From Earliella scabrosa (taxonomy: Eukaryota > Basidiomycota > Agaricomycetes > Polyporales > Polyporaceae): 64,000 nucleotides of DNA. Where the stretch lies: contig JABYQQ010000014.1 in the NCBI GenBank assembly GCA_022605405.1, positions 682,001 to 746,000 of the forward strand, read 5' to 3'. The notes beneath the pieces are model-generated. The model was not told the origin of the DNA. It did not search any database and saw nothing but the letters and a program-made list of their open reading frames with translations. Positions 15,392 through 63,625 of the stretch are shown here, piece by piece; position 1 is the stretch's first letter, and every line of letters begins with the position of its first letter. Both the position numbers and the translations under genes were made by a program.

Positions 15392-15971
15392 TGTTGAACT
15401 TAGGGTTATCCGGCACTGTCTGGACCGATATGTCCCCATATGGACTTGTGGCTATGCGTTCACATGACGCACAGCATGGGCTATGCTTCTTCGTTACTAT
15501 ATATAGATAACTCTGCATCTGTACGATAGTTCTTTCTTTCCGGACTTTACCTCTACGTACCAGTGCGTTCTACGATGTTCCGGATAGTTCCAGACCTTAT
15601 GTCTGACTCAGACTTGGTGCTCATCCTCACGTCATACTGACTCATCCTCGCACCATAGCCTCGTATGCCTCTTACTCATCGTCTTGTGGCTAACATGTGA
15701 CTGCTTTCTACGCTTACTCAGCTACTTTCCCTACGTCTATATAAGCAGCTCACATTTCGCCTCTGCTCTTCAGTCGTTCGCTCACTGACTGAAGAGTAAG
15801 TCTCATACATACATATGCTCTCTACTTACTTACTGACTAAGTACTTGTAGTCTCTCTCTGTTCGACTTACAGGTACTTATCTATGCAATAGAGTCGTTCG
15901 CTCACTGACTGAAGATCTCTCTCTGTTCGACTTACAGTCGGCTCCCAGCCTTCCAGGTCTGAAGTTCATCA
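15392..15971 (+). repeat. 5' LTR of Copia element 1
   Basis: Starts TGTTGAAC, ends TTCATCA. TATATAA lies at 15738-15744. Unit A (15771-15795) begins 33 nt after the TATA start, where the transcript should begin. A GTAAGT...TTGTAG intron-like segment (15796-15850) separates it from unit B (15851-15872). After a spacer starting GTACTT, an intron-less A-B copy follows (A 15892-15915, B 15916-15937). Confidence 0.93.
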
Positions 15972-15993
15972 GGTTATGAGCCCTGCGCTCTGA
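15972..15993 (+). promoter_or_regulatory. Primer-binding site, internal initiator tRNA-Met type
   Basis: The bases GGTTATGAGCCCTGCGCTC follow the LTR directly. They are complementary to the anticodon arm region of a fungal initiator tRNA-Met (contains the CAT anticodon in GGGCTCATAACC). Drosophila copia is primed in the same way by a tRNA half, not by the tRNA 3' end. Confidence 0.7.
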
Positions 15994-16077
15994 CCGGTTG
16001 CTACTTCGTCGACATCTTCGTGCGCACACCTCTCTCTTCGTCGACTCTCTGCCCGTGCTCCCTCCATCTTTCCTCAC

Positions 16078-16481: not shown

Positions 16482-19400
16482 TAGACCACAGTTTTGGAGC
16501 CGACACCAGCATCTCCTCCCTCTGAGGCGGAAGTCGAGGATCTGATTGACTCCCAGTCGTCGTCTGACTCCTCTGACTACAAACCCACCGTCGACTCTTG
16601 TCAGGAACTTCCACACGTTCTTGACGAGGAATACCCTGCCGATTCTCATCTCCATCCGGAGGACGGCTTCTGGTACAACTGTCACCGGAGTCCTTGTCCT
16701 CATCGGTACAACGGGGTTCCCGTTCAACCCGAAGATTATCCTGACACATTCAAGTGGGCTTTCCCCTCTCCTGACCAAGAGGATTTCCTTGCTGGAGTCA
16801 ACACTGCCCTTCCAGTCGCATCAGACACACCCTATACCACTCCTCTTCCTTTCATCGTCCTAATCCCTCCTACTCCGGAGGTTATCCCTGAGCCAATCGA
16901 GACTCTCCCTCCTCCTCTCATCGAGTTACCTCCTCCTATTGCAACACCGCTTCCACCGGTCGCACCAGTAACAACATCCGTAGACTTCTCGGAGGACTAT
17001 CTCGACTCATCGCACTTTCTCTTATCAATCATGGGAGACGTCAAGCTCGACTCTATCCCTTCCCTTTCGTCGGCAAACCAGTACACCGACTGGTCTGCCA
17101 AGATGAAGGGCTACTTCATCTTCATGGGCTGTTGGGACGTCGTCAACGGCAAGACCAAACGTCCAACTGCTGCCGACAAGCAGGAGTCCTGGGACAAGCT
17201 CGACGAGAAGAAGCCCAAGGGCAAAGGCAAGGGAAAGGGAAAGGCGAAGGACAAGGATAAGGACAAGGACAAAGGGAATAACAAGGACAATCAGCCCCAT
17301 GCGCATACCGTCGTCGAGTCTCAGTCTGTAAATGTAGTCGCGTCGTCTAACATTGTTGGTTCTTTCTACCCCGAGGCCCTCGTCGCCTCTAGTGAGAACT
17401 GGACTGCATGGCTGATGGACTCAGGTGCTTCTCAGCATATCACGGGCGACCTAAGTGACTTCTCCGAGTATCAGCCGTTTGATACGCCCATCAGCTTCAA
17501 TACTGCTGATGCGAGCAACATGATCCTTGCTCTCGGGAAGGGCACGGTCCGTGGTAACACTTGGGTTGATGGTGACAAAGTTACGATCACACTCACCCAT
17601 GTGTACTACATCCCGAAGTTGAGAGGTCGTATCTTCTCGACAGGCACCATTGAGCGCAACGGGTACTCCCTTGTCCAAGGAGATGGGAAGATGTGCATCT
17701 TTGACAAGCTGCCAGAAGGCGCTGTCAAATTTGGTTCGACGATTTGAATCAAGGGTCGCAAGATCCTTGAAGCGGAGTACAACGTCCTGAGCAATATCTA
17801 CTGGGCTAAGCTCGAACTTCACAATGGCCAGCGTGTTCATCTTAACGTCAGCCGCTTTCGTACCTTGCACCGTCGCTTTGGTCATCTCGGCAAGGACGCG
17901 CTGCGCCATCTCCCGAAGAACGTCCGAGGGGTTGATTCAGTTGATTCCCCTGAAGACGAAGATGAACCGTGTGAGGGATGTGCCTGGGGCAAATCCACTC
18001 GTCTCCCCTTCCCGCCTTCTGATAAGCGTGCTACGGAACCACTCGAGCTCGTTCATACCGATCTTGATGGCCCGATGCGCACACAAGCTATCGGAGGTTA
18101 CAAGTATTTCGCCGGTTTCATTGATGACTACTCCGGACTCGCCCGTGCTTACTACCTTAAGTCGAAGTCGGATGCGTTCCAAGCGTTCCTCGACTACAAG
18201 GCGTGGGCTGAGACCCAGACCGGTCGAAAGATCAAGAAGGTCCGCTCGGACCGAGGGGGAGAATACACTTCTACCGAGTTCTCTGAGCTTCTTCGTTCGC
18301 ACAGGATCGAGCACCAGAAGACTATGCCTGGCTCTCCGCAGCAGAATGGACGCGCTGAGCGCTGGAACCGTACTATCGTCGAAAAGGCCATGGCCATGCT
18401 CCATCAGGCAGGTCTTAGTCACGGTTTCTGGCAACTCGCCGTTGATGCAGCCGTTCATATCTACAATCGTCAACCGATGCGTCGACACAAATGGCAATGC
18501 CCCATCACCAAGTGGGACGGAACCGTTCCGGACGTCTCCTACTTCCGAGTGTTCGGGTGCAAAGCCTTTGTACACGTGCAGAAGGCAAAGCGCGAAGGGA
18601 AACTCGACAAGAAGGCTGTCGAGATGATCTTCGTGGGGTATGAGTCTGGTTCCAAGGGGTATAAGTTTTGGAATCCAGCCAACCGCTCTATCGTAGTGTC
18701 TCGCGATGTGACATTCGATGAAGAGTCTTTCCCTGCTCGTAAACTCCCCGGCAACCATCCTGTTACCCCGGATGACCATCCGTTCCCAGATGATCAGTCT
18801 GATAAGGCTTCCGAAGCCGATGTCGACGGTCATGAGGACGACCTCCATCCCGAGATTGTTCCTGAACTCCCAGATCTACCACCTGACCCTCCAGCGGATG
18901 CTCAGCCACCTCCTGCTGAAGCGCCTCCTCCAGCCGACGCCCCTGCTCCTCCGCCACCGCAACCGCCTCAACCGCCTGCTGAACCACCGCCTAAGCCTGC
19001 TCACAAGCGAGGACGTCACCCTCCAGTGGGAGAACAGCCTCCCAGCCTTGCGCGTGACAGACCACGGCGTGAGAATGCGGGTAAACGGTCCGAGTCGAAG
19101 ACTCGTGATAACGTGTACGGCGACGAACCACCGGCTAAAGTCGATGCCCGGACTGATCCGGATGGCACGCAGCGAGAGGACCAAGCGCTTCTCATGTTTC
19201 TCATGGCGTCTCAGTACAAAACTGGCATTCCGAACTCCCACAAGGAAGCCATGAAGTCGCCTGAAGCTGAGAAATGGCGTGATGCGGAGAAAGCGGAGTA
19301 TGACTCGTTGCTCGAGAATAAGACTTGGGTCCTTGTCCCTCGTCCGAAAGATCGGCACGTGGTCTCTAACCGCTGGGTCTATGACATCAAGCACGATGGG

Positions 19401-20771
19401 CGGTACAAAGCTCGTCTAGTCGCTAAGGGTTTCACTCAGGTGTGGGGCGAGGACTATCACGAGACCTTCTCCCCTGTGGCGCGGTTCGAGTCTATCCGGT
19501 ACCTCCTCGCACATGCAGCGCTTGAGGACTGGGACATCGAGTCAATGGATGTCAAGACCGCGTTCCTCAATGGCGATCTGGATGAGGAGATCTACATGGA
19601 ACAGCCGGAAGGTTGGATCGTTCCTGGCAAGGAGGATCACGTGTGTCTGCTGAAAAAGGCTATCTACGGTCTTAAGCAGGCATCCCGTCAGTGGAACGTG
19701 AAAATCCACCAGTCGCTTATTAGCCTGGGATTCAAACGGACCTATTCCGATGCCGGGATCTATGTATATCGGCGACAAGGGGGGGATCACGTCACTATCG
19801 TCGTTCTTTATGTCGACGATCTACTTCTCCTCGGCGATCAGCCTGGCCACATACAGCACGTGAAGCGTTCGCTTTCTAAGCAGTACAAGATGACGGACTT
19901 GGGACCAGTTCAGCGTTTCCTTGGTCTTCGCATCACTCGTGACCGTGCTTCTCGGATCATCGAGATCGACCAGGAAGAGTACATCCAGTCCGTTCTCGAG
20001 CGCTTTCACATGGCCGACTGCAAGCCGTCGCGTACCCCTCTCCCTGCTGGTGCTGTTCTAGAGTCATCTGAGCACACCGCCACCGATGCGTCGCGTCAGC
20101 GCTATCAGAGCTTGATTGGCAGTCTTCTGTACGCCATGCTCGGTACGCGGCCCGACATAGCCTTTGCTGTCACGCGGCTTTCAAAGTTCAATGCCAATCC
20201 CTCAGACGCGCATCTTCACTATGCCAAGTATGTCCTCCGGTATCTTCAGGGTACTAAGGCGTACCGGCTGCGCTACCAGGGAGCGTCTAATGACGGTCTG
20301 ATTTCGTACTCCGATTCGGACTGGGCTGAAGACCGTGATGATCGGCATTCTACCTCTGGCTTCATCTTTCTGATGGCAGGTGCTGCTATATCGTGGGCAT
20401 TGAGGCGTCAGCCTACCATTTCGCTTTCCTCGACCGAAGCGGAGTATAAAGCGGCCTCTGACACTTGTCGTCAATTGGTGTGGCTGAGGACGTTCGGTGA
20501 AGAACTCGGCGATGACATGTCTCGACCAACTCCCATGTGTCTTGACAATCAGGGGTCTATCTTCCTGTCCGTCAATCCCGTGATCGACCGCCGGACCAAG
20601 CACATCGAGGTTAGATACCACTTCATCCGAGAGCAGGTGGAGTTGGGATCGACCGAGATCTTCTATGTAGCGACTGCGGATCAACTCGCCGACGCTCTGA
20701 CTAAGAATGTGCCTTTGGCAATTCAGTCGAAGTTCGTCCAAGAGATTGGTCTTGCTTATGTCACATCTTGA
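16482..20771 (+). pseudogene. Copia gag-pol of element 1, gag-deleted and with a stop
   Basis: The frame runs from after a TAG at 16482 to a TGA before 20772, interrupted by one TGA at 17745-17747. The first Met in the usual gag position is at 17031 (MGDVKLDS). Compared with element 2, most of gag is missing: the sequence jumps from ESWDKLDE into a Lys/Gly/Asp run, so about 190 residues including the zinc knuckle are gone. Protease (MDSGASQHITG), the gag-pre-integrase zinc region (HRRFGHLG to CEGCAWGK), integrase (HTDLDGP, DRGGEY, NGRAERWNRT), RT with YVDDLLLLG and RNase H (SSTEAEYKAASD) are all readable downstream. The protein could not assemble particles on its own. Confidence 0.9.
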
Positions 20772-20782: not shown

Positions 20783-21362
20783 TGTTGAACTTAGGGTTAT
20801 CCGGCACTGTCTGGACCGATATGTCCCCATATGGACTTGTGGCTATGCGTTCACATGACGCACAGCATGGGCTATGCTTCTTCGTTACTATATATAGATA
20901 ACTCTGCATCTGTACGATAGTTCTTTCTTTCCGGACTTTACCTCTACGTACCAGTGCGTTCTACGATGTTCCGGATAGTTCCAGACCTTATGTCTGACTC
21001 AGACTTGGTGCTCATCCTCACGTCATACTGACTCATCCTCGCACCATAGCCTCGTATGCCTCTTACTCATCGTCTTGTGGCTCACATGTGACTGCTTTCT
21101 ACGCTTACTCAGCTACTTTCCCTACGTCTATATAAGCAGCTCACATTTCGCCTCTGCTCTTCAGTCGTTCGCTCACTGACTGAAGAGTAAGTCTCATACA
21201 TACATATGCTCTCTACTTACTTACTGACTAAGTACTTGTAGTCTCTCTCTGTTCGACTTACAGGTACTTATCTATGCAATAGAGTCGTTCGCTCACTGAC
21301 TGAAGATCTCTCTCTGTTCGACTTACAGTCGGCTCCCAGCCTTCCAGGTCTGAAGTTCATCA
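20783..21362 (+). repeat. 3' LTR of Copia element 1
   Basis: Same 580-bp sequence as the 5' LTR apart from one base (21083). It keeps the A-intron-B-A-B arrangement, so the arrangement was inherited through transposition, not made after insertion. Confidence 0.93.
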
Positions 21363-28181: not shown

Positions 28182-29286
28182 TCACCCATGACCATGAATC
28201 CGTAGACGATAGATGCAGGTAACGTCGCTACCCCAGTTATCGAACACTTCGACCACGAACACTCCAAAGTTGATGCGCGCGTCAAAGATCTTTGGGTCCA
28301 CCGGGAACGTCTGGCTGTGGTGGGGGGATTCGAGATTGAAAGTGAAGTTTGCGATGTGCATGAATGTGTAGATATCCTGCATCGGAGGACCAACGCCACG
28401 CTGAAGTTGACCTTGTCGACCCTGATTCGCTCGTCCGTCGAGGGCCCCCCAAAGCCGCATGCGCCGAGGGGCTTGGCCTGGATCATCCGCGACCTTCTGT
28501 GGTACATAGTCTACGGTGATGTGCGTGGGGTGGATGACATGAGGAATGTAGATGCCAACCTGTCCGTGGTTCCCCTCGAACTGCCAGCATCTACCTCCAT
28601 GGAGGTTGTGGCGTAGGACTACTTCAGCGGGATGGCGAGTCGAACTGGATTTGGAGCCGGCTGCCCTCGGGAGCTCCAGGGTGCACGACGTCAGTTCGGG
28701 GACAATGCGGCCTCCGTCCACTGCAAGCGCATAGTCACGAGGACCATAGTGAGTGTGCATGGCGTTCTGAACGGCCTCTTCGATGTACTGGGCGAGATGG
28801 GGTGGTATGGTTTGTGGTGGAGCGGAAGGGAGACGGAGCAAGGTGGATAACGAGCGAGTGCGCACATAGACATATTTGGCGAGAACGCGCGGAAAAGCTG
28901 GCTGGTATACAGCAAAGGCAACTAGAGCGAGGGCGAAGCACAAAGTGAAGGAGACGAGGGGTCCAGGCGCGGGGGTACGGGAAAATCGTGTGCGTGTAGC
29001 TCGGGGGGATCCTTTTCTCCCTGGGTTCGGTGGTTTGGACGACGTACGCTGATCCAAGCTACCCAGTGGCCCCCCCGTGCGCGGTGAGCTACCGGGGCGG
29101 GGGAGATTTGTATGTTGGAATCTGGGATCGTCCTGAGCCCACCGCACATGCTTGGAGGCTACTACCACGATGAGACACCGCGGATTGGGAGCATTAAGTC
29201 GACGGCTTACCGGGTTGTGCGGACTCCTCAAAAACGAAGCGGCCTCCATAGAAGGGATCTTCGATGGCGGGCTTGTGGGCGTACAT
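28182..29286 (-). CDS. SUN-domain protein 1
   Basis: Two exons, 29286-29211 and 29161-28182, with a 49-bp intron, give 351 residues from ATG at 29286 (MYAHKPAIEDPFYGG). A single membrane helix (SFTLCFALALVAFAVY) near residue 95 is followed by a linker and the SUN domain, seen as DYALAVDGGRIVPELTS, PAEVVLRHN, CWQFEGNHGQVGIYIP, RRMRLWGALDG and a final CIYRLRIHG. SUN proteins sit in the inner nuclear membrane with the domain in the perinuclear space, where they bind KASH partners. No coiled coil is obvious, so this is a short form. A longer start upstream (29424) is possible. It has a paralogue at 62299-63366 with an intron at the same place. Confidence 0.85.
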
Positions 29287-29487: not shown

Positions 29488-29915
29488 TCAGACGAGCAAG
29501 GGAGCGCGTCGGGAGCGCGGCGGAGTGCCAGTTCAAGTTGGTCGTGTCCGAGCGAAGGAGGTACCTCGCTAGGCAGGAGCGCCTCCGATACGACGAAGCG
29601 ACGAGTAGGGCAGTGCTTCGCACCGAGGGGGGAGAGGGACTCGTTAGTATGACGAAGCCCTGTCGGATGGAGGGTCGGCTCGCGGGAGTGCGTCGGAGCG
29701 CGGGTGCGAGAGAGCACCGACGAGTGAGGGAACGGGGGTGTGCGAGGGAGCGCCTCGCTGCGGAGAGAGCACGTTTGCAGCGAGGGTATGCGCTGATACG
29801 TAGTGCGTCGAAAAGAGGGAAGAAGCCGTCGGCATGGCCAGAGCGTGTCGGATGGGCTTGCGCAGTGTGTCGGGCAGAGAAGCACGGCGTCGGAGCGAGG
29901 GAGCGCGGGAGATAA
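29488..29915. repeat. Dispersed GC-rich repeat, copy 1
   Basis: The sequence from TCAGACGAGCAAGGGAGCGCG through GTGCGTCGAAAAGAGGGAAGAAGCC closely matches 61592-62105 in the same orientation. It is built from GGAGCG, CGAGGGAG and CGGAG words. No protein, terminal inverted repeat or tRNA-like promoter was recognised. It lies just upstream of SUN gene 1. Confidence 0.75.
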
Positions 29916-47773: not shown

Positions 47774-48469
47774 CTTGTATGCCGTGTGCTCTATATCTTC
47801 TAGGTTAAGCGAGCCTTGAAGCTTCAAGCTTGGAGTTGGAGCGCTCTGACTGGTGACGGGGAAGGGGCCACGTGGGCGCCTCCTGTAAATTTACCAAATT
47901 GACTCCGATCGGCTCTGTTCCTACTTACATCCGCTTGCAGGACCTCTCCATATCGTACTCTGCTAATCCTATCTTACGATATCCTTTCAAGTCACTGATT
48001 GCGTCGAATCGCTGTGGTACGACTTGGATATGATACAAGCGGTCCGCGCTGTGCCCCGGGCCCCCATCTTCTTTGACTCGCACTCGCGTGCCGACTCGCT
48101 ACCGATGTCGCCCCCCCGACGCCTAGCGAGGAGACGTGCCGTTGACGCCGTCGCCAGTCACGTCGGGCAGGACTACGCGGCGTGCCCTAGGGTGGAACGC
48201 GTCGCTGAGAAACGTTAGGGCGGGGACTCATTCCCATGCAGGACGACGGTCTGCGCGAGGCCCGTCAATCTCGACATCACTCATCCCAATTTGCCTCATT
48301 GCATTCCGCTGGTCAACAGGGCAAATCGCGCTCGTGTAGTGCGAGAATTACAGGACAACCATATGGCATGCATTGGAAGACAGAATTGACCTACACAAGG
48401 TGGGACATTGTGAAAAGGATGACAGGGCTACAAGGGGCGCAGGTAGACGCAGAAACAAGAGGTGGCGAC
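47774..48469. other. Region upstream of the JmjC gene
   Basis: Probably its promoter and 5' UTR. No other gene seen. Confidence 0.35.
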
Positions 48470-49855
48470 CAGAGCTCCCGACGCACGATCTTGACCAGCG
48501 GCGGCGTGCGCGAAGTATGGCCCGCACAGATGTGCGCGCCAGAGCTCCGAGGGAGAGGTGACCACCCGACGCACGATCTTGACCAGCGGCAGCGTGCGCG
48601 AAGTATGACCCGCACAGATGTGCGCGCCAGAGCTTCGAGGGAGAGGCGACCACCAGGGCTCCCGACGCACGATCTTGAGCTCCGAGGCAGTGGCGTCCAG
48701 AGCTCCCGACCTAGTGTCAACCAACGGTGGCGTGCGCGAAGTATGGCCCGCACAGATGTGCGCGCCAGAGCTTCGAGGGAGAGGCGACCACCAGGGCTCC
48801 CGACGCACGATCTTGAGCTCCGAGGGAGTGGCGTCCAGAGCTCCCGACGCACGATCTTGACCAACGGTGGCGTGCGCGAAGTATGGCCCGCACAGATGTG
48901 CGCGCCAGAGCTCCGAGGGAGAGGTGACCACCCGACGCACGATCTTGACCAGCGGCAGCGTGCGCGAAGTATGACCCGCACAGATGTGCGCGCCAGAGCT
49001 CCGAGGGAGTGGCGACCACCAGGGCTCCCGACGCACGATCTTGAGCTCCGAGGCAGTGGCGTCCAGAGCTCCCGACCCAGCGTCAACCAACGGTGGCGTG
49101 CGCGAAGTATGACCCGCACAGATGTGCGCGCCAGAGCTCCGAGGGAGTGGCGACCACCAGGGCTCCCGACGCACGATCTTGAGCTCCGAGGCAGTGGCGA
49201 CCAGAGCTCCCGACCTAGTGTCAACCAACGGTGGCGTGCGCGAAGTATGGCCCGCACAGATGTGCGCGCCAGAGCTCCGAGGGAGAGGTGACCACCCGAC
49301 GCACGATCTTGACCAGCGGCAGCGTGCGCGAAGTATGACCCGCACAGATGTGCGCGCCAGAGCTCCGAGGGAGTGGCGACCACCAGGGCTCCCGACGCAC
49401 GATCTTGAGCTCCGAGGCAGTGGCGACCAGAGCTCCCGACCTAGTGTCAACCAGCGGTGGCGTGCGCGAGGTATGGCCCGCACAGATGTGCGCGCCAGAG
49501 CTCCGAGGGAGAGGTGACCACCCGACGCACGATCTTGACCAGCGGCAGCGTGCGCGAAGTATGACCCGCACAGATGTGCGCGCCAGAGCTCCGAGGGAGT
49601 GGCGACCACCAGGGCTCCCGACGCACGATCTTGAGCTCCGAGGCAGTGGCGACCAGAGCTCCCGACCTAGTGTCAACCAGCGGTGGCGTGCGCGAAGTAT
49701 GGCCCGCACAGATGTGCGCGCCAGAGCTCCGAGGGAGAGGTGACCACCCGACGCACGATCTTGACCAGCGGCAGCGTGCGCGAAGTATGACCCGCACAGA
49801 TGTGCGCGCCAGAGCTCCGAGGGAGTGGCGACCACCAGGGCTCCCGACGCACAAT
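48470..49855. repeat. 226-bp higher-order minisatellite
   Basis: A core CGCACAGATGTGCG recurs at 48523, 48611, 48749, 48889, 48977, 49115, 49253, 49341, 49479, 49567, 49705 and 49793. Spacings alternate 88 and 138 (sum 226), with single long steps near the left end. Each core is a near-perfect hairpin (CGCACA-GA-TGTGCG) and is followed by CGCCAGAGCTCCGAGGGAG. Long frames on both strands come from the repeat and are not taken as genes. Confidence 0.9.
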
Positions 49856-50167
49856 GTCGACTAGACCTTCGAACAGCAGCCGGCCAAACCGTCTTCCATG
49901 GACACAGAATTCGAAAACCATATTCCGATCGAGACGACGAACCTCTGCGACCAGATATGGCTGATCCTTTGGCGAGGGTAGCAGGACACGCAAAAGACGT
50001 GGACAATGATGAATCCTGGCGGGACTACCTGAGCTTGTCGGATACTGAGGATGTGATTCACACACTCACCAATAGATACTTCCCCACCGAACACCCAGCC
50101 CTGGCACGGAGTGGGTAGTTGTGTTCCCTCTGTTGCGAGGAGGAGTCGCTGCGAGCGGGCAATGTGC
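49856..50167. other. Unique stretch left of Copia element 2
   Basis: No gene recognised. The element is inserted at its right end. Confidence 0.35.
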
Positions 50168-50172
50168 GGGTG

Positions 50173-50770
50173 TGTTGAACAATGGACTACGAACAGTAGA
50201 CGCGCATTAGGCGCTATGGGCACTGCTTCTTACGATAGATCTTAGGCTGTGCTTCTTTCTTTCCATATTAGGTATACGTTGTACGATACACATGGTTACT
50301 AGGCTTCTCTTTTGTCCAGTCCATTCCAGTGCGTTCTTCTACGCTCCGGACTCCTCTTAGACTGTTCCAGATCGTCCTTGTGACCATACTTTGTTCTCCA
50401 TTTGTCGTTATCTTTGTTCTGTCTGAGTCATCCTTCGTCGCTCCTTACTCATCCTCGACTCACTCTGACTCAGACACATCACATGCTCTCCTTATTGTCG
50501 CTTACTCATGCAGCTCCTGTACGGTATATAAGGAGGACTCTCTGGGACTCGTCTCCTCAGTCTTTCACTCACTGACTGAGGAGTAAGTACACATCTTACC
50601 TATGCGTTCTATGCTCTTACTTACAAGTACCTGTGTAGCTTGTCTGTCCGCTCACTTACTAGGTACTTGGCATTATGCTAATACAGTCTTTCACTCACTG
50701 ACTGAGGACTTGTCTGTCCGCTCACTTACTAGTCGCTTGCGACATCGCCTCACAGGTTCTCACTCCATCA
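50173..50770 (+). repeat. 5' LTR of Copia element 2
   Basis: TGTTGAAC start and CCATCA end. TATATAA is at 50525-50531. Unit A is 50558-50582, 33 nt after the TATA start; an intron-like segment GTAAGT...GTGTAG is 50583-50638; unit B is 50639-50662; a spacer starting GTACTT follows; then A again at 50684-50708 and B at 50709-50732 with no intron. Outside the ends and this plan the LTR differs clearly from that of element 1. Confidence 0.93.
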
Positions 50771-50792
50771 GGTTATGAGCCCTGCGCTCTGA
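50771..50792 (+). promoter_or_regulatory. Primer-binding site of Copia element 2
   Basis: GGTTATGAGCCCTGCGCTC, the same as in element 1 and complementary to the anticodon arm of initiator tRNA-Met. Confidence 0.7.
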
Positions 50793-50864
50793 CCGTTGCT
50801 AGTCGTCACATCGCGCGCACCCGACGACTTCTACCCTCGTGCACATCCTCCACTAACTCCTTAG

Positions 50865-50934
50865 CTCTTGACTGTGCCCGCCGACACTGCTGCCAGGGGG
50901 ACATTCCTGCGCTCGTGACGCAGCCCTGAGCGCT
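50865..50934 (+). promoter_or_regulatory. Conserved leader block of Copia element 2
   Basis: Identical over 70 bases to 16078-16147. Lower but clear similarity continues downstream (GCCAGGCCACGCACTTGCGC and TTGTATCCGGGGTG) to about 51110. Confidence 0.5.
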
Positions 50935-51291
50935 CTTTAGTAGTCACATAGCTCGTAGTATCGTTGTACAACCTATTGTGCTCTCGAGGCACACGGGTCC
51001 TTTTTGGATATCCCTCAGCCAGGCCACGCACTTGCGCCCGCCAGCTGTTGTATCCGGGGTGTCATCACCTTTGGAGCCGGAGGACAACCGTTCGGACCCT
51101 CCTTACGATACCATTTTCATACATACATCGTAGCAGACTCTTTCAGGGCACAGTTGGCAACTTCTACCCTTGGCATCAGCATATCCGACTTGCTGGTGTT
51201 TAAGGTTCACCTGAACAGGTGTTCATCTCTACGTTGCCTTTGCACGAGGCTTTCCAAACCATCGCACTCTTGAACCTGTCGCATCAACACA

Positions 51292-54200
51292 GTGGCTTCA
51301 TCGGACGACGAACCGTTTGATTGTAGTCACTCATACCATCGGCACGACCGCGTTGACCAAAGGGACGTCTTCTGGGAAGAGTCAGATAGAAGGTGGTACT
51401 ACTGCGAACGACAACCGTGTCCTAACCGGGAGTCGGAAGTAGCTCAACCAGACAACTGCACTGTACCTCGTCGTAACGTACCTATCGCTCCTGACCAGGT
51501 CTGCCGACCACGAACACCGGACACATCCTCGTCATCCTCATCCCCTGCTTCGTCTGAGCACGAAGTTGCAAATATCCTCGAAGATCCTGCGGAGCCTCCA
51601 GTCCCAACTCCTCTCCCTTCTATCGTTATCTCTCCGCCTACACCGACTCTCACTCCTCTACCAGCCCTCGATCTCATCGTCAACCAGCCTGACTCAACCG
51701 ACTTCGTCTACTCCTTCACCATGTCGGAAGCCGGAATGGAAAAGAGTCTTCCTCAGCTCCATGGGCAGGAAGGCTACAAGGAATGGGCTCGTCAGATGAA
51801 GGGCTATCTCATGATGATCGATGCATGGGATATCGTCAGCGGCACGGAGAGTCAACCAGCTGCCACTGATGGGGCTGGTCTCAAGGATTGGAAGAAGAGA
51901 GATTCCCGTGCAAGTGGTATCCTCATGTACAAAACCACTGCCGAGGTAGCCAAGTGCTATGAAGGGAAGAACACCTCGAAGGAGATCTGGGATGCCCTGA
52001 ACACGACCTACGAGAAGACCGACAACGGGTACAGTTTCTCCCGCTTCGAACGGCTTCTCAACTATCCTCGTTTCAACGAGAACAAGTCGATCGTCGACCA
52101 GGTCCAGACCTTCATCGGGCTGATGAATGAGCTGACCACAGGCTCCACCAACACCCTCGCCGAACATATCAAGGTCTACTGGCTCTTCTCCAAGATGCCG
52201 GATTCCTATCGCCCGTCGATCTCCACTATCCTTCACACCACGGCTGAGACGGACTTGACCCTTGAAAAGGTTAAGCCGAAACTCAAGCTCGAGGACTCCC
52301 TCCGTGGTACATCGATCGGTCAGGCGAACAAGATCTCCAAGCCCAAGTCCAAGCCCAAGCCTCCTTGCGAGCATTGCGGTAAGACGAACCACGATTCGTC
52401 GAACTGCTACAAGAAGTTCCCGGAGAAAGCTCCGAAGCGGAACAAAGGCAAGGGCAAGGACAACGGCAACGGCAACGGGAATCAGTCAGGTGGATCTGGG
52501 AATAATAATGGACATAACCACGCGCACACTCTAGCAGCCTTTGTACCTGTATCTACGAGCACCATCAACGAGATCTCCTTTTCAGCTTATAAGGCGGACA
52601 ACGCCAAAGACATGGACCTTGAGCGAACCACACTCTGGCTCATGGATTCTGGAGCATCTCAACACGTTACTGGCTGCCTCGAGGACTTCACTGAGTACCG
52701 TCCATATGACACACCTGTTCTGTTTGGCACCGCCCAGGCAGGTAGTGACGGACATGTCCAAGGACTCGGTGAAGGTACGGTCAAAGGATACACTTATGTG
52801 GAAGGCAAACGGGTCCACTTCACACTTCAGAACGTCTGCTACGTTCCAGCAGCAGGCAATACCCGTCTGTACTCCACTGGTGTCATCGAGCGCGCGAAGG
52901 GGTTCATCTATCAAGGGGGATACTACATGAGGATCTTTGACTCAAGGCCGGAAGGCTTTGTCGAATCTGGCAAGACGGTTAAGGTTGTCGGCAATGAGGT
53001 GGTTACTGCCCACTACGCCGCATCACACAACCTATACTACTTTCTGCTTGAGAATGCCGAACGTGATCTCAATGCTGCGTCCCACACTACACTCGATCAC
53101 GACCTTGCTCATCGTCGCTGGGGTCATCCTGGCAAGGAAGCGGTCAAGCGTCTTCCTGATGCAGTCAACGGTGTAGATGGCATTGACTCTAGTTCATCGG
53201 ACAAACCATGCGAAGGATGCGCGAAAGGCAAAATGCATCGCCGTCCGTTCCCTCCGTCTTCGAAACGCGCCTCGGAACCATGCGAACTCGTCCACATGGA
53301 TGTCGCTGGGCCGATGAGCACCTCGATTGGTGGTTACAGCTACTTCTGCACCTTCATCGATGACTACACCGGTCTCGCCTGTGTCTACTGCCTGAAGCGT
53401 AAATCCGATCAGGAGGCCGCTTTCAAGGAGTACAAAGCCTGGGCTGAGACACAGACCGGTCGTAAGATCAAGAAGGTACGATCCGATCGAGGGGGGGAAT
53501 ATCTGTCCGATTCGTTCGAGTCATTGCTACGCGAATTCGGGATCGAGCACGATAAGACGTTGCCTGGCTCGCCTCAGCAGAATGGACGTGCTGAACGCTT
53601 CAACCGGACCATTGAGGAGAAGTCACTCTGTATGCTTCACCACGCCGGACTCTCTCATGGTTTCTGGAAACTCGCACTTGAAGCAGCCGTTCACATCTAC
53701 AACCGTCAGCCCATGAAACGACTCAAATGGCAATGCCCCATCACACTTTGGTCTGGTAAGAAGCCGGACGTCTCATACTTCCGTGCGTTTGGGTGCAAAG
53801 CCTATGTACATGTGCAGAAGGACAAGCGTCATGGGAAGCTCGACGTGAAGGCAGTCGAGAGGACGTTTGTGGGCTATGAACCGGGTTCAAAGGGGTATCG
53901 TCTATGGAACCCGACTGCCCGCCAAGTCGAAGTATCTCGCGATGTGATCTTCGATGAGGACGTATTTCCTGCACGTGCAGACACCGGCACTCGTCGCGCT
54001 ACCCCCGACGACAGTCCGTTCCCTGCTCAACCGTCAGAGGATTCTTCCAATGACGATGTTGATCTCCCTGTTCCTCGTGATAACGACGAACCTCCTCCTC
54101 CCGCTCCGCCACAAGACCCTGCTCCTGCTCCGCCCGAAGCTGAACCGCAGCCGCCGCAACCACAACAGCCTCCGCCGCCTCCCGCTCAGATTCCTAAGCC

Positions 54201-55983
54201 GAATCATCGTCGCGGACGTCATCCTCCTGCCGCAGGAGATGCCCCTCCTCCTCGTCGCTCTGAGCGACAGACCAAGGGTGTCCCTTCAAAGGCACGGACC
54301 GAGGACAACGTGTACGGGGATGAACCTCCCGCTCAGATAGATGCTAGGACCGATGCGGATGGTGAACAGGCTGAGGCACAATCAATACTCGCGTTTATCC
54401 ATTACTCTCGGTACAAGTCTGGTATTCCTGAGCACCATAAGGATGCCATGGCTAGACCGGATCGCGAACATTGGAAAGCGGCTGAGCGAGCAGAGTACGA
54501 ATCACTAATGGCTAATAAGACATGGGTCTTGGTTCCTCGCCCAAAGGACCGATCCGTCGTCACATGCCGTTGGGTCTATGATCGGAAGTCAGATGGTCGC
54601 TACAAAGCACGTCTCGTAGCTAGGGGATTCACGCAAGTCTATGGGAAGGATTACCACGAAACCTTCTCACCCGTCGCTCGTTTCGAGTCCATCCGTTATC
54701 TCTTTGCGCATGCTGCCCTAGAGGACTGGGACGTCGACGCGATGGATGTAAAGACTGCGTTCCTCAATGGCGACCTTGACGAGGAGGTCTACATGGAACA
54801 ACCGGAAGGGTGGGTCGCGAAAGGCAAAGAGGATCACGTTTGTCTGCTTAAGAAGGCCATCTACGGTCTCAAGCAAGCCTCGCGCCAGTGGAATGTCAAA
54901 ATCCACGACTCGCTTGTCCAACAGGGATTTGTTCGGACGTACTCTGATGCCGGAGTCTACGTATATCGCCGACAAGGGGGGGATTCAGACCCTGATCATG
55001 TCACTATCATTGTCTTGTATGTCGACGACCTACTTCTCATGGGGAAAAGTCGCGTACAGATTGACAAGGTCAAGAAGGCGCTAGGCAAGCAGTACAAGAT
55101 GACGGACTTAGGTCCGGTACAGCGATTCCTTGGTCTACGCATACGTCGAGATCGTCAAGCTCGGACACTCGACATTGACCAGGAAGAGTACATCGAGGCT
55201 ATTCTGGAAAACCATCAGATGGCTAACTGTACGCCTGTGCGCACTCCTCTTCCCTCTGGTGCCGTGCTCGAAGCCGCTCAGACGGAGGCATCGGCAAAAC
55301 TTCTCAAGCGTTTCCAGAGCTTGATGGGCAGTCTTCTCTATGCCTGTCTTGGGACGCGACCCGACATCGCGTTTGCCATCAGCCGTCTCGGTAAATACAG
55401 CGCTAACCCCTCGGAAGCACATCTTCACTATCTCCAATACGTGCTTCGCTATCTCCGGGGGACTTCACATTATCGTCTGCGCTATGACGGAGCGTCTAAT
55501 GCCGGTTTGATCGCGTTTTCCGATTCAGACTGGGCAGAGGATCGCGATGATAGGCACTCGCAAACTGGCTTCATCTTCAAGATGGCAGGTGGCGCAATCT
55601 CATGGGCGTCGCGACGGCAGCCGACGATTTCGCTCTCTTCTACTGAGGCGGAATACAAGGCAGCATCAGACACCAGCCGTCAGATGATGTGGCTAAGGAC
55701 GTTTGGAGATGAGTTAGGGGACGACATGAGTGCGTCTACGCCCATGTGTATGGATAACCATGGCGCTATCTTCCTCTCTGAGAACCCAGCCATCGACAGG
55801 CGTACCAAGCACATAGAGGTCCACTACCATTTTGTGCGCGAGTATCTCGCCAGTGGGAGTATGGACATCTATTACATCGCGAGCAAGGAGAATCTGGCAG
55901 ATGCGCTAACGAAGAATGTCACCTTCTCTGTGGTTGACTACTTCGTACAGCACTCTGGTCTCATTTCTTCCTCCGCGTCTTGA
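51292..55983 (+). CDS. Copia gag-pol polyprotein, intact
   Basis: One frame of 1563 codons. Its 5' end has no ATG: it opens GTGGCTTCA right after an ACAG, and the first Met is at 51721 (MSEAGMEK), the usual gag start. Domains in order, numbered from 51292: gag (to about 350), zinc knuckle CEHCGKTNHDSSNC (about 359-372), protease MDSGASQHVTG (about 452), gag-pre-integrase HRRWGHPG and CEGCAKGK (about 605-650), integrase with D near 669, DRGGEY near 731 and E near 768, a Pro-rich linker, reverse transcriptase with YVDDLLLMG near 1243, and RNase H (SSTEAEYKAASD) near 1450. It should be cleaved by its own protease and make virus-like particles inside the cell. Confidence 0.95.
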   Translation: MASSDDEPFDCSHSYHRHDRVDQRDVFWEESDRRWYYCERQPCPNRESEVAQPDNCTVPRRNVPIAPDQVCRPRTPDTSSSSSSPASSEHEVANILEDPAEPPVPTPLPSIVISPPTPTLTPLPALDLIVNQPDSTDFVYSFTMSEAGMEKSLPQLHGQEGYKEWARQMKGYLMMIDAWDIVSGTESQPAATDGAGLKDWKKRDSRASGILMYKTTAEVAKCYEGKNTSKEIWDALNTTYEKTDNGYSFSRFERLLNYPRFNENKSIVDQVQTFIGLMNELTTGSTNTLAEHIKVYWLFSKMPDSYRPSISTILHTTAETDLTLEKVKPKLKLEDSLRGTSIGQANKISKPKSKPKPPCEHCGKTNHDSSNCYKKFPEKAPKRNKGKGKDNGNGNGNQSGGSGNNNGHNHAHTLAAFVPVSTSTINEISFSAYKADNAKDMDLERTTLWLMDSGASQHVTGCLEDFTEYRPYDTPVLFGTAQAGSDGHVQGLGEGTVKGYTYVEGKRVHFTLQNVCYVPAAGNTRLYSTGVIERAKGFIYQGGYYMRIFDSRPEGFVESGKTVKVVGNEVVTAHYAASHNLYYFLLENAERDLNAASHTTLDHDLAHRRWGHPGKEAVKRLPDAVNGVDGIDSSSSDKPCEGCAKGKMHRRPFPPSSKRASEPCELVHMDVAGPMSTSIGGYSYFCTFIDDYTGLACVYCLKRKSDQEAAFKEYKAWAETQTGRKIKKVRSDRGGEYLSDSFESLLREFGIEHDKTLPGSPQQNGRAERFNRTIEEKSLCMLHHAGLSHGFWKLALEAAVHIYNRQPMKRLKWQCPITLWSGKKPDVSYFRAFGCKAYVHVQKDKRHGKLDVKAVERTFVGYEPGSKGYRLWNPTARQVEVSRDVIFDEDVFPARADTGTRRATPDDSPFPAQPSEDSSNDDVDLPVPRDNDEPPPPAPPQDPAPAPPEAEPQPPQPQQPPPPPAQIPKPNHRRGRHPPAAGDAPPPRRSERQTKGVPSKARTEDNVYGDEPPAQIDARTDADGEQAEAQSILAFIHYSRYKSGIPEHHKDAMARPDREHWKAAERAEYESLMANKTWVLVPRPKDRSVVTCRWVYDRKSDGRYKARLVARGFTQVYGKDYHETFSPVARFESIRYLFAHAALEDWDVDAMDVKTAFLNGDLDEEVYMEQPEGWVAKGKEDHVCLLKKAIYGLKQASRQWNVKIHDSLVQQGFVRTYSDAGVYVYRRQGGDSDPDHVTIIVLYVDDLLLMGKSRVQIDKVKKALGKQYKMTDLGPVQRFLGLRIRRDRQARTLDIDQEEYIEAILENHQMANCTPVRTPLPSGAVLEAAQTEASAKLLKRFQSLMGSLLYACLGTRPDIAFAISRLGKYSANPSEAHLHYLQYVLRYLRGTSHYRLRYDGASNAGLIAFSDSDWAEDRDDRHSQTGFIFKMAGGAISWASRRQPTISLSSTEAEYKAASDTSRQMMWLRTFGDELGDDMSASTPMCMDNHGAIFLSENPAIDRRTKHIEVHYHFVREYLASGSMDIYYIASKENLADALTKNVTFSVVDYFVQHSGLISSSAS

Positions 55984-55994
55984 ACGAGTGGGAG

Positions 55995-56592
55995 TGTTGA
56001 ACAATGGACTACGAACAGTAGACGCGCATTAGGCGCTATGGGCACTGCTTCTTACGATAGATCTTAGGCTGTGCTTCTTTCTTTCCATATTAGGTATACG
56101 TTGTACGATACACATGGTTACTAGGCTTCTCTTTTGTCCAGTCCATTCCAGTGCGTTCTTCTACGCTCCGGACTCCTCTTAGACTGTTCCAGATCGTCCT
56201 TGTGACCATACTTTGTTCTCCATTTGTCGTTATCTTTGTTCTGTCTGAGTCATCCTTCGTCGCTCCTTACTCATCCTCGACTCACTCTGACTCAGACACA
56301 TCACATGCTCTCCTTATTGTCGCTTACTCATGCAGCTCCTGTACGGTATATAAGGAGGACTCTCTGGGACTCGTCTCCTCAGTCTTTCACTCACTGACTG
56401 AGGAGTAAGTACACATCTTACCTATGCGTTCTATGCTCTTACTTACAAGTACCTGTGTAGCTTGTCTGTCCGCTCACTTACTAGGTACTTGGCATTATGC
56501 TAATACAGTCTTTCACTCACTGACTGAGGACTTGTCTGTCCGCTCACTTACTAGTCGCTTGCGACATCGCCTCACAGGTTCTCACTCCATCA
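55995..56592 (+). repeat. 3' LTR of Copia element 2
   Basis: 598 bp, same as the 5' copy as far as I compared. The polypurine tract GAGTGGGAG precedes it at about 55985-55994. Confidence 0.93.
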
Positions 56593-61591: not shown

Positions 61592-62105
61592 GGTCGCTCA
61601 GACGAGCAAGGGAGCGCGTAGGGAGCGCGAGGGAGTGCGGCGGAGCACGGGTTGGTCGTGTCCAAGCGAAGGAGGTCTGGTGCGTCGGAGCGAGGGAGTA
61701 CGTTGCTAGGGAGAAGCGCATCAGTACGACGAAGCGACGAGTAGGGGAGTGCTTCGCACCGAGAGGGAGTCGTTAGTATGACGAAGCCTGTCGGATGGAG
61801 GGTCGGCTCGAGGGTCGGCTCGCGGGAGTGCGTCGGAGCGCAGGTGTGAGAGCACGTCGCGCGGAGGAGTGCGATCAACACGAAGGAGCGACGAGTGAGG
61901 GAACGGAGGTTTGTGAGGGAGCGCGTCGCTACGGAGAGAGCACGTTTGCAGCGAGGGTATACGCTGATACGTAGTGCGTCGAAAAGAGGGAAGAAGCCGT
62001 CGGCATGGCCAGGGCGTGGCTGATGGGATGTCGAATGGGCTGGCGGAGTGTGTCGGTCAGAGGAGCACGTCGGAGCGATGGAGCGGAGGCGTGTGGAGGA
62101 GCGCA
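61592..62105. repeat. Dispersed GC-rich repeat, copy 2
   Basis: Same sequence as 29488-29915 in the same orientation, with small insertions such as a GAGGGTCGGCTC duplication near 61800 and GCGCGGAGGAGTGCGATC near 61860. It lies just 3' of SUN gene 2. Confidence 0.75.
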
Positions 62106-62298: not shown

Positions 62299-63366
62299 CT
62301 AAGTTCTGCCATGAATACGGAGACGATGAATGCACGTGTGACTATCACCCCAATTGTCCACGACTTCGAGAACAAATAAACCAAAAACAAGCTGCGAGTC
62401 TTGAACGTGCTCGAAGATAGGGAATGTTTGAACGTGTTTCGAAAGCATCTGATACTCGAAATCCGCAAGCAACAGGAACGTGTTGCCTTGTCTCACCGGT
62501 GGGCCGGTGTGGAGAACGGGGGGGAACGATGACTGTATAGAATCGTACCGTTTTACATTGGCTTTACCATCCAGCGCCCCCCAGAGTCGCAAGTTGCGAG
62601 GTGCTCGCCTCCTCCCTACGGTGTCTAGAGAGGGAATGTGGTCCACGGTGACGCCTGTAGGGTACACGACCTCCGGCAAGGATATGCCGACTTGGCCTTG
62701 GTTGGAGGTGATTAACCAACAGGGCCCGCCTCCGAAGCTGTCACGAAGGATAACGCGAGCGGGGTGGGACGAGGTCGTCGGAATGGGGATGGAGTTGTTC
62801 GTAGTGAGCGACAAGACGATACGGGTACCGTATTGTTCCGACGCATGGTCACGTTGCCCTATCTGTTCGAGGAGTGCCTTCTCGATTGCTGCATCGACAT
62901 ACTGACGCAGGTGCCAGGGGATACGCTCATGCGCGACGGGACGAGAGAAGGACAAGGATGGAGTGACTTGCGAAGCGAAGCGCTGGATGATTTGCGCGAG
63001 CGGAGGACAGAGCCAGCGGCCGTTATAGATGACGAGGAGGGGAAGAAAGGCTAGGAGGGCAACCATGCCCCAATGTTGGAGCCGCTTGAGCCACCCGAAG
63101 CGAGTGGGGGATGGGACGGAGCTTGGCGAGAGCGGCGACGACAACTTGCGAGATGCTCTGGACTGAGCTCGTTCAGAGCTTCTTGATCTAGACGGGGAGG
63201 TGGGAGGGGTAGTCTTGAACCGGACGTGCTTACGAGCTGTGGCAGTCAATGTCATGAAAGTCCCAGTGTGCGCAACATGCATACCATCGAAGCCAGCGCC
63301 CTCAAGGAACGCGTTCCCATCATATGGATTGATGTTGTGTTGTCCTGAATCGACCACTCTGGGCAT
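62299..63366 (-). CDS. SUN-domain protein 2
   Basis: ATG at 63366 starts MPRVVDSGQHNINPYDGN. A 48-bp intron (63284-63237) is a multiple of three and opens in frame, so it is easily missed; removing it joins GAGFD to ARKHVRF, matching the splice position in SUN gene 1 (QPVASKHVRW). The product is 339 residues: basic N-terminus, one membrane helix (MVALLAFLPLLVIY), then the SUN domain with PARVILRDSFGGGPCW, NQGQVGISLPEVVYP, RNLRLWGALDG, LVFGLFVLEVVDNWGDSHTC and RLRIHGRT. Expected place is the nuclear envelope. Outside the SUN domain it differs strongly from protein 1, so the duplication is old. Confidence 0.85.
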   Translation of the reverse strand: MPRVVDSGQHNINPYDGNAFLEGAGFDGMHVAHTGTFMTLTATARKHVRFKTTPPTSPSRSRSSERAQSRASRKLSSPLSPSSVPSPTRFGWLKRLQHWGMVALLAFLPLLVIYNGRWLCPPLAQIIQRFASQVTPSLSFSRPVAHERIPWHLRQYVDAAIEKALLEQIGQRDHASEQYGTRIVLSLTTNNSIPIPTTSSHPARVILRDSFGGGPCWLITSNQGQVGISLPEVVYPTGVTVDHIPSLDTVGRRRAPRNLRLWGALDGKANVKRYDSIQSSFPPVLHTGPPVRQGNTFLLLADFEYQMLSKHVQTFPIFEHVQDSQLVFGLFVLEVVDNWGDSHTCIHRLRIHGRT

Positions 63367-63625
63367 TTTGGCACAAGCGCAGGTCGTTCTAGTAGATGAT
63401 AGGGAAAGTGCTGGGGAGGTGGCAGAGTCCGCCGTGTGGGCGAGGCTGACAACAGTTGGATTATCTAGGTTATATAATATAGTTACATTTACAGGGACAT
63501 AAAAACGCAAAAATCTCGATTGGTGCCAGTGCAGACGTCGTATAGTATAGCCCAAGGGCCAAGGCTGGCTCCAACGGTGCATAGTTCAAAGTCTTCAGAC
63601 TGATTGCGTGATCAGTGGAGGGACT

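Follow-up and report, generated by a model that had tools for sequence, protein, structure and literature searches.

Passage through RNA is classically proven by the loss of introns, which makes it paradoxical for a retrotransposon to retain introns upstream of its primer site; the paradox is taken up here. How such a state could be maintained is the question raised by element 1, a retrotransposon on the + strand of the 64,000-nucleotide stretch of DNA analyzed here as a whole (hereafter the window). Its 5′ LTR (15392..15971, 580 nt, TGTTGAAC...TTCATCA), whose limits are set by the identity of the LTR pair and by GTGGT on both outer flanks, carries a TATA box (TATATAAG, 15738..15745) and a block termed A1 (15772..15795), which reads as exon 1 and at which the sequence shared by two copies begins. 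A1 is followed by a putative intron 1 of 55 nt (15796..15850, GTAAGT...CTGAC...TTGTAG) and by B1 (15851..15872), the presumed exon 2, which ends in ACAG immediately before a GT. After a spacer of 19 nt (GTACTT...) comes A2-B2 (15892..15937), a copy of spliced exons 1 and 2, and then the remainder of the LTR (U5, 15938..15971), which would constitute exon 3. Direct reading gives 24/24 identical letters between A1 and A2 (15892-15915) and 22/22 between B1 and B2 (15916-15937), with A2 abutting B2. A preliminary description of this DNA had reported an intron-bearing unit next to its own spliced copy at 15738-15937. The layout, the 55-nt segment, the identities and the exact junction were all recovered in our analysis, with one correction: A starts at 15772, not 15771. 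The TATA box at 15738 stands 34 nt upstream of A1.

A primer-binding site (PBS, GGTTATGAGCCCTG..., 15972..15995) lies directly 3′ of the 5′ LTR, and is followed by a coding region (16494..20771) split into open frames of 417 and 968 amino acids (16494-17747 and 17865-20771), in which Pfam detected no gag domain. In many other copies, the frame around the reverse transcriptase domain is open over 1613 or 1616 amino acids. The 3′ LTR (20783..21362) contains the whole A-B arrangement again (A1 21163-21186, intron 1 21187-21241, B1 21242-21263, spacer 21264-21282, A2 21283-21306, B2 21307-21328). The LTR pair is identical at 579 of 580 positions, the single difference being located in U3, and the insertion is bounded by a GTGGT target-site duplication. 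The same anatomy is found in element 2 (50173-56592, + strand, target-site duplication GGGTG), which had been overlooked in the preliminary description. Its 5′ LTR (50173..50770) has the same order as that of element 1, in other letters: A1 (50559-50582), a 56-nt intron 1 (50583-50638, GTAAGT...TGTAG), B1 (50639-50662), a spacer beginning with GTACTT (50663-50684), A2 (50685-50708), B2 (50709-50732) and exon 3 (50733-50770), the A-B copies again being identical. Its 3′ LTR (55995..56592) is identical to its 5′ LTR, and Pfam assigned gag-pol to one frame of 1563 amino acids (51292..55983). In both elements integrase precedes reverse transcriptase (RVT_2, Pfam), which is the Ty1/copia order, and the LTRs have TG..CA/TA ends, 5-bp target duplications and a PBS directly after the 5′ LTR.

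The preliminary description had also missed the GT at the start of the spacer and the AG at the end of the second B. Because GTACTT comes right after B1 and AG forms the end of B2, in element 1 as well as in element 2, the spacer together with A2 and B2 reads as a second GT-AG intron, the likely intron 2 (15873..15937, 65 nt, in element 1). When both introns are removed, the resulting A1+B1+exon 3+PBS is the same as the DNA from A2 onward, over 104/104 letters in element 1 and 100/100 in element 2. Intron 2 starts with GT and ends with AG in 11/11 representative LTRs, the last G being provided in some of them by the PBS. This is the case in the L047/L048 and L051/L052 families, whose LTRs stop with B2, so that the acceptor AG borrows the first G of the PBS; in the spliced RNA, nothing but A-B would then stand before the PBS. 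The inferred introns of elements 1 and 2 both end before the PBS, and because they lie upstream of it, a spliced RNA can be the genome here. The retrovirus-like subgenomic arrangement, with the PBS inside an intron and an unspliced genome, was found in neither element 1 nor element 2. The first 14 letters of the PBS have 108 exact copies in the genome, and its reversed control has 0. The PBS resembles the complement of the initiator-tRNA anticodon arm, a candidate partner; a half initiator-tRNA primer is used by some copia elements. A tRNA-gene pattern search for a partner of the PBS gave 0 matches.

These features suggest how the introns could survive. We consider it very probable that this copia LTR carries two spliceosomal introns and that A2-B2 is a landing site by which they are restored after passage through spliced RNA. 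Transcription would start at A1, at the A of CAGTC in element 1, and splicing would remove intron 1 and intron 2 to give a genomic RNA of the form A-B-exon 3-PBS, from which reverse transcription primed at the PBS would yield a strong-stop cDNA, A-B-exon 3. The sole full match of this cDNA in an unspliced 3′ LTR would be A2-B2-exon 3. First-strand transfer would take place there, and extension would copy the spacer, B1, intron 1, A1 and U3, so that the progeny LTR regains both introns with an A2-B2 freshly written from spliced exons 1 and 2 of the parental 5′ end. A2-B2 would act as a slave copy, the element passing through spliced RNA with its introns retained. This scheme would require that the 3′ LTR of the template RNA escape splicing, and introns would occasionally be lost when the 3′ LTR is spliced or when the cDNA lands on A1. 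A one-step landing at A2-B2 would explain the precision of the junction, the edges of the block, the joint change of the two copies and the occasional losses. The preliminary description had likewise envisaged a reverse-transcribed spliced 5′ end placed through transfer at R, which we retain. It had viewed this transfer as misaligned and as a single event, neither of which we retain: the transfer would be correctly aligned, because the DNA starting at A2 reads the same as the fully spliced 5′ end. Its alternative of two R regions of different splice state came close, the second copy being better seen as a landing site for spliced cDNA. We also rejected, by reasoning, a version in which intron 1 alone is spliced, as it would place two A-B units in the strong-stop cDNA and would fail to renew A2-B2; for element 1, the A-B-GTACTT form was moreover absent from the genome pattern search given below.

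The chance expectation for the A-B block is near nil. Allowing up to 3 mismatches, A and B had a mean of 0.00 matches in 100 shuffled windows each, and, with no GT-AG filter applied, a detector of interrupted repeats produced 1 match in 50 mononucleotide-shuffled windows. In the real window, the same detector returned 64 matches on the + strand and 55 on the − strand, most of which fall in one tandem-repeat array at about 48.5-49.9 kb. Seven of the window matches have GT-AG; four correspond to the LTRs of elements 1 and 2, and the other three to the tandem-repeat array. In this region of the window (48462-49943), related repeats are arrayed at spacings of 88, 138 and 226 nt.

The presence of the block in relatives was investigated using two samples. 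A search of the genome of the window for the copia reverse transcriptase domain gave 101 matches, and the 3′ flanks of 20 diverse ones were taken. The A-B layout, detected with 10-letter seeds, was present in 9 of these 20 flanks, and a tenth relative with the layout, L041, was recognized after extension of its stretch. Also among the 20, L043 has a single-intron form, and L042 is a deleted relative. Of ten LTR pairs whose sequence we followed as far as the PBS, nine have the layout in both LTRs, with the exceptions that the 5′ LTR L068 lacks part of intron 1 and that the 3′ LTRs L039 and L052 have a one-letter difference between the A-B copies; in the tenth pair, L067/L057, the 5′ LTR has no intron 2. 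Immediately 3′ of the L039 3′ LTR, which is of another family, lies a stretch that resembles the L057-family A-B-exon 3 in its spliced form. No relative outside the source genome was found in a viral contig collection.

As a less selective sample, we took 100 of the 108 PBS-marked loci, each with 400 nt of upstream sequence. The two-intron layout is present in 70 of these 100 5′ LTR ends, which belong to several unlike copia families. Intron 1 has GT-AG ends in 69 of the 70, as placed by a layout detector that favored GT-AG by a small bonus when positioning the junction, and in the remaining LTR, L166, intron 1 is damaged. Tandem duplication without an intron-precise junction, raised in the preliminary description as evidence that would count against a spliced origin, was thus not seen in these 70, and, given the intron-precise junction in unlike families, we reject simple tandem duplication as the source of the block. 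The other 30 loci do not have the two-intron layout. Thirteen of them form one short-LTR family, which shares the PBS start and has no exon-copy structure. Five have a splice donor only (L128, L168, L170, L174, L175), four have a single-intron version (L108, L109, L110, L138), two precisely lack both introns (L135, L176), two lack intron 2 (L131, L156), two are truncated (L091, L099) and two are of other kinds (L084, L139). The short-LTR family (L087 and 12 related loci) apparently has an LTR of about 220 nt, TGTCGG...GCGACA.

Are the segments between the exons true introns? Among 39 copies of the element 1 family, nine positions of intron 1 vary, none of which is in GTAAGT, in CTGAC or in the last 10 nt. 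A short YTNAY-type motif, a possible branch site, precedes the intron 1 acceptor in 11/11 representatives and, over the range searched, the intron 2 acceptor in 9/11. The edges of the block coincide with what would be the limits of the spliced 5′ end. B1 ends at AG/GT, the end of exon 2, and the shared block starts at AGTC or at most 2 letters away from it in 9 of 11 (sub)family groups, all except those of L107/L166 and L114. A strict TATA pattern in the 120 nt upstream of A1 was missing in 9 of the 11 LTRs examined, only those of elements 1 and 2 being positive. Without any splicing, the LTR would instead possess two alternative promoters, or two R regions, and the GT-AG ends would have arisen by chance, a reading that DNA evidence such as ours leaves room for. 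This reading is almost certainly wrong in our judgment, given the GT-AG ends of intron 1 throughout the 70 LTRs except L166, the GT...AG of intron 2 in every representative, the exact absence of intron 1 alone from the LTR L184 described below, and the location of the TATA box in elements 1 and 2, 34 nt before A1 in both, with none visible by eye between A1 and A2.

A constraint on how the second copy is maintained comes from comparing the copies between and within LTRs. A+B has a mean identity of 58% between eight families (48-78%), whereas the two copies inside one LTR are exact in 64 of 70 cases and differ at 9 of 3292 sites. In six pairs of related (sub)families, the same set of differences is found in both copies (11, 5, 7, 2, 2 and 9 differences); the two pairs with 2 differences carry little weight, as three of their four differences are at the block edge. 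Because A1-B1 and A2-B2 change together across families, the A-B copy appears to be remade repeatedly. This bears on the proposal of the preliminary description, in which one aberrant strand transfer of spliced RNA occurred once and was then amplified. Such an event would account for the intron-precise junction in one family. It is contradicted by the occurrence of the layout in unlike families with their own letters and copies that are nearly always identical in each LTR, since the copies left by a single ancient event would have diverged independently. We reject a one-off accident on the basis of the joint change, and regard this proposal as extremely improbable. A further possibility is that no copying takes place and that selection alone, for strand transfer or protein binding, holds both copies identical. 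The cDNA would have to pair with copy 2, so that mismatches would be costly. However, B is strongly divergent between families and near-identical within LTRs, and many paired changes would be needed where copying yields identity in one step, which makes an explanation by selection alone highly implausible.

Of the six mismatched LTRs, L123 reflects a match that the detector carried too far, L127 and L129 have their difference in copy 1, and L159 is decayed. The other two, L118 and L119, have different flanks, and both carry ..CTGGAGA in A1 and ..CTGAAGA in A2. Homogenization is imperfect, because these two loci share the A1/A2 mismatch. They would be explained as siblings of one parent with unlike LTRs, or by transfer between two co-packaged RNAs. 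L193 groups with L118 and L119 and their CTGGAGA/CTGAAGA mismatch.

The preliminary description had suggested searching for related LTRs lacking the intron or the second A-B, and such LTRs do occur: some lack intron 1, some intron 2 and some both. Our loss searches used patterns with up to 3 mismatches and covered the element 1 and element 2 types. Element 1-type LTRs without introns were found at four places. Two are the LTRs of one insertion on C11 (target-site duplication TCCAC), both introns being absent from these LTRs, which are identical over the 444 nt compared; the other two, on C23, are oppositely oriented at a distance of 2.7 kb and were counted once. Element 2-type LTRs without intron 1 were also found at four places. 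L199 and L200 lack both introns. The remaining two places belong to a single insertion on C23, flanked by the duplication CGGGG: its 5′ LTR, L176, has neither intron, and its 3′ LTR, L184, is without intron 1 only. L184 has lost intron 1 precisely while keeping intron 2, and is the sole such LTR in the element 1- and element 2-type searches. The loss of both introns is precise in L135/L185, L176, L199 and L200, as is that of intron 2 alone in L156 and L131. Absence of intron 2 alone was encountered at one element 1-type place, whose 3′ LTR, L187, has both introns with several letters of intron 1 differing, and at no element 2-type place.

These losses are also relevant to the possibility that the likeness of A1-B1 and A2-B2 is maintained at the DNA level, by gene conversion or unequal exchange. 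The A copies and the B copies form direct repeats, L131, L135 and L156 lack segments that such exchange would remove, and losses other than that of L184 could result from direct-repeat recombination between the A or the B copies. The L184 loss is of another kind: because intron 1 alone is gone, it did not arise by A1/A2 or B1/B2 recombination, and it could in principle be a conversion of copy 1 by copy 2. As a general explanation, conversion would nearly always have to leave out intron 1, and in every family its tracts would have to end at the presumed RNA start and at the exon 2 boundary. If it spanned both units, intron 1 would be deleted or duplicated, and in the element 1- and element 2-type searches L184 is the only LTR in which intron 1 alone is missing; an A-B-GTACTT form of element 1 had 0 matches in a genome pattern search with up to 3 mismatches. 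Maintenance at the DNA level is very unlikely on these grounds, and we favor restoration through landing of spliced cDNA at A2-B2.

A simpler version of the same organization is provided by a family with a single intron, represented by L108, L109, L110, L138 and both LTRs of L201/L043. The intron, GTGGGT..., ends in a copy of exon 1, so the same rule would apply with one exon. In two of four members of this family, L109 and L110, copy 1 has AAACTTC and copy 2 has AGACTTC, and in the relative L042 the intron is partly deleted. We find it rather likely that an intron ending in a copy of its own upstream exon or exons is a general device, by which a retroelement could go through spliced RNA and still pass on its introns, and which, judging from its two forms in unlike families, would have been adopted more than once. 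If so, it would leave a signature detectable in genomes, consisting of one or more exons, GT...exon copy...AG, and a primer-binding site. In L169 and L191, which are the LTR pair of one element, B2 is followed by an additional 23 letters (A + B). We considered a captured splice of intron 2 to an AG inside A2 as their origin and did not retain it, as a 23-bp tandem duplication fits equally well; a duplication is also seen in L099.

To our knowledge, no copia element has been described in which LTR introns are restored by a copy of the spliced RNA 5′ end. The elements studied here resemble Ty1/copia elements in the order of integrase and reverse transcriptase, the LTR ends, the 5-bp duplications and the adjoining PBS, and differ from them by an LTR with likely introns and a spliced 5′-end copy that would restore them. 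In retroviruses, the first-strand transfer of strong-stop cDNA occurs at R and brings the cDNA of the 5′ end to the 3′ LTR. The same step would be used here, except that R would be split, being made by splicing at the 5′ end and carried by an intron, as A2-B2, at the 3′ end. HTLV and foamy virus have a splice donor in R and an acceptor downstream of the PBS; a donor inside the LTR is a shared feature, and L073 of the source genome looks like their arrangement. L073, on C23, has an LTR donor (TCTAG/GTGAGT) and a fitting acceptor (GTCTAG/CTCAACC) after the PBS, just before an ATG. The PBS of L073 would then be inside an intron, with splicing of the retrovirus-like subgenomic kind. The LTRs of L128, L168, L170, L174 and L175 are of copia type with a donor AG/GTGAGT; the leader was read only in L073.

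Introns are known in other retroelements. The introns of the plant LTR elements EVADE and Ogre are reported to give rise to subgenomic RNAs by alternative splicing (PMC12786077); these are likewise LTR elements with functional introns, and ours differ in that the introns are located upstream of the PBS. Penelope-like elements retain introns, for which an antisense template, or possibly an unspliced one, has been tentatively invoked (PMC3846280). Introns thus survive retrotransposition there too, in elements of another class, and their retention is not ascribed to an exon copy. Among the titles and abstract openings listed in searches of open-access literature, none describes LTR introns kept or restored by an exon copy. 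An engineered lentiviral vector (PMC5542766) proved to be a false lead as a precedent, and the part consulted of a paper on copia elements of a mushroom mentions no LTR intron (PMC10817607).

Why would an element keep introns at all? For efficient expression of transgenes, Ganoderma lucidum (PMC7017817) and Armillaria mellea (PMC4935854) are both reported to require an intron. If the host is similar, the element would need introns for its expression, together with a means of not losing them, and the layout may explain how retroelements cope with hosts whose genes need introns. The paradox would be resolved by a simple rule, a copy of the spliced 5′ end placed at the end of the intron. Such LTRs would provide a natural record of first-strand transfer, a splicing marker in each new insertion, and a directional, testable form of concerted evolution.

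A Pfam analysis of eight frames of the window returned Sad1/UNC only, in two of them, at 28182-29249 and 62299-63582 on the minus strand. Copies of a 144-nt repeat are located near these two open frames, at 29713-29856 and 61884-62027.
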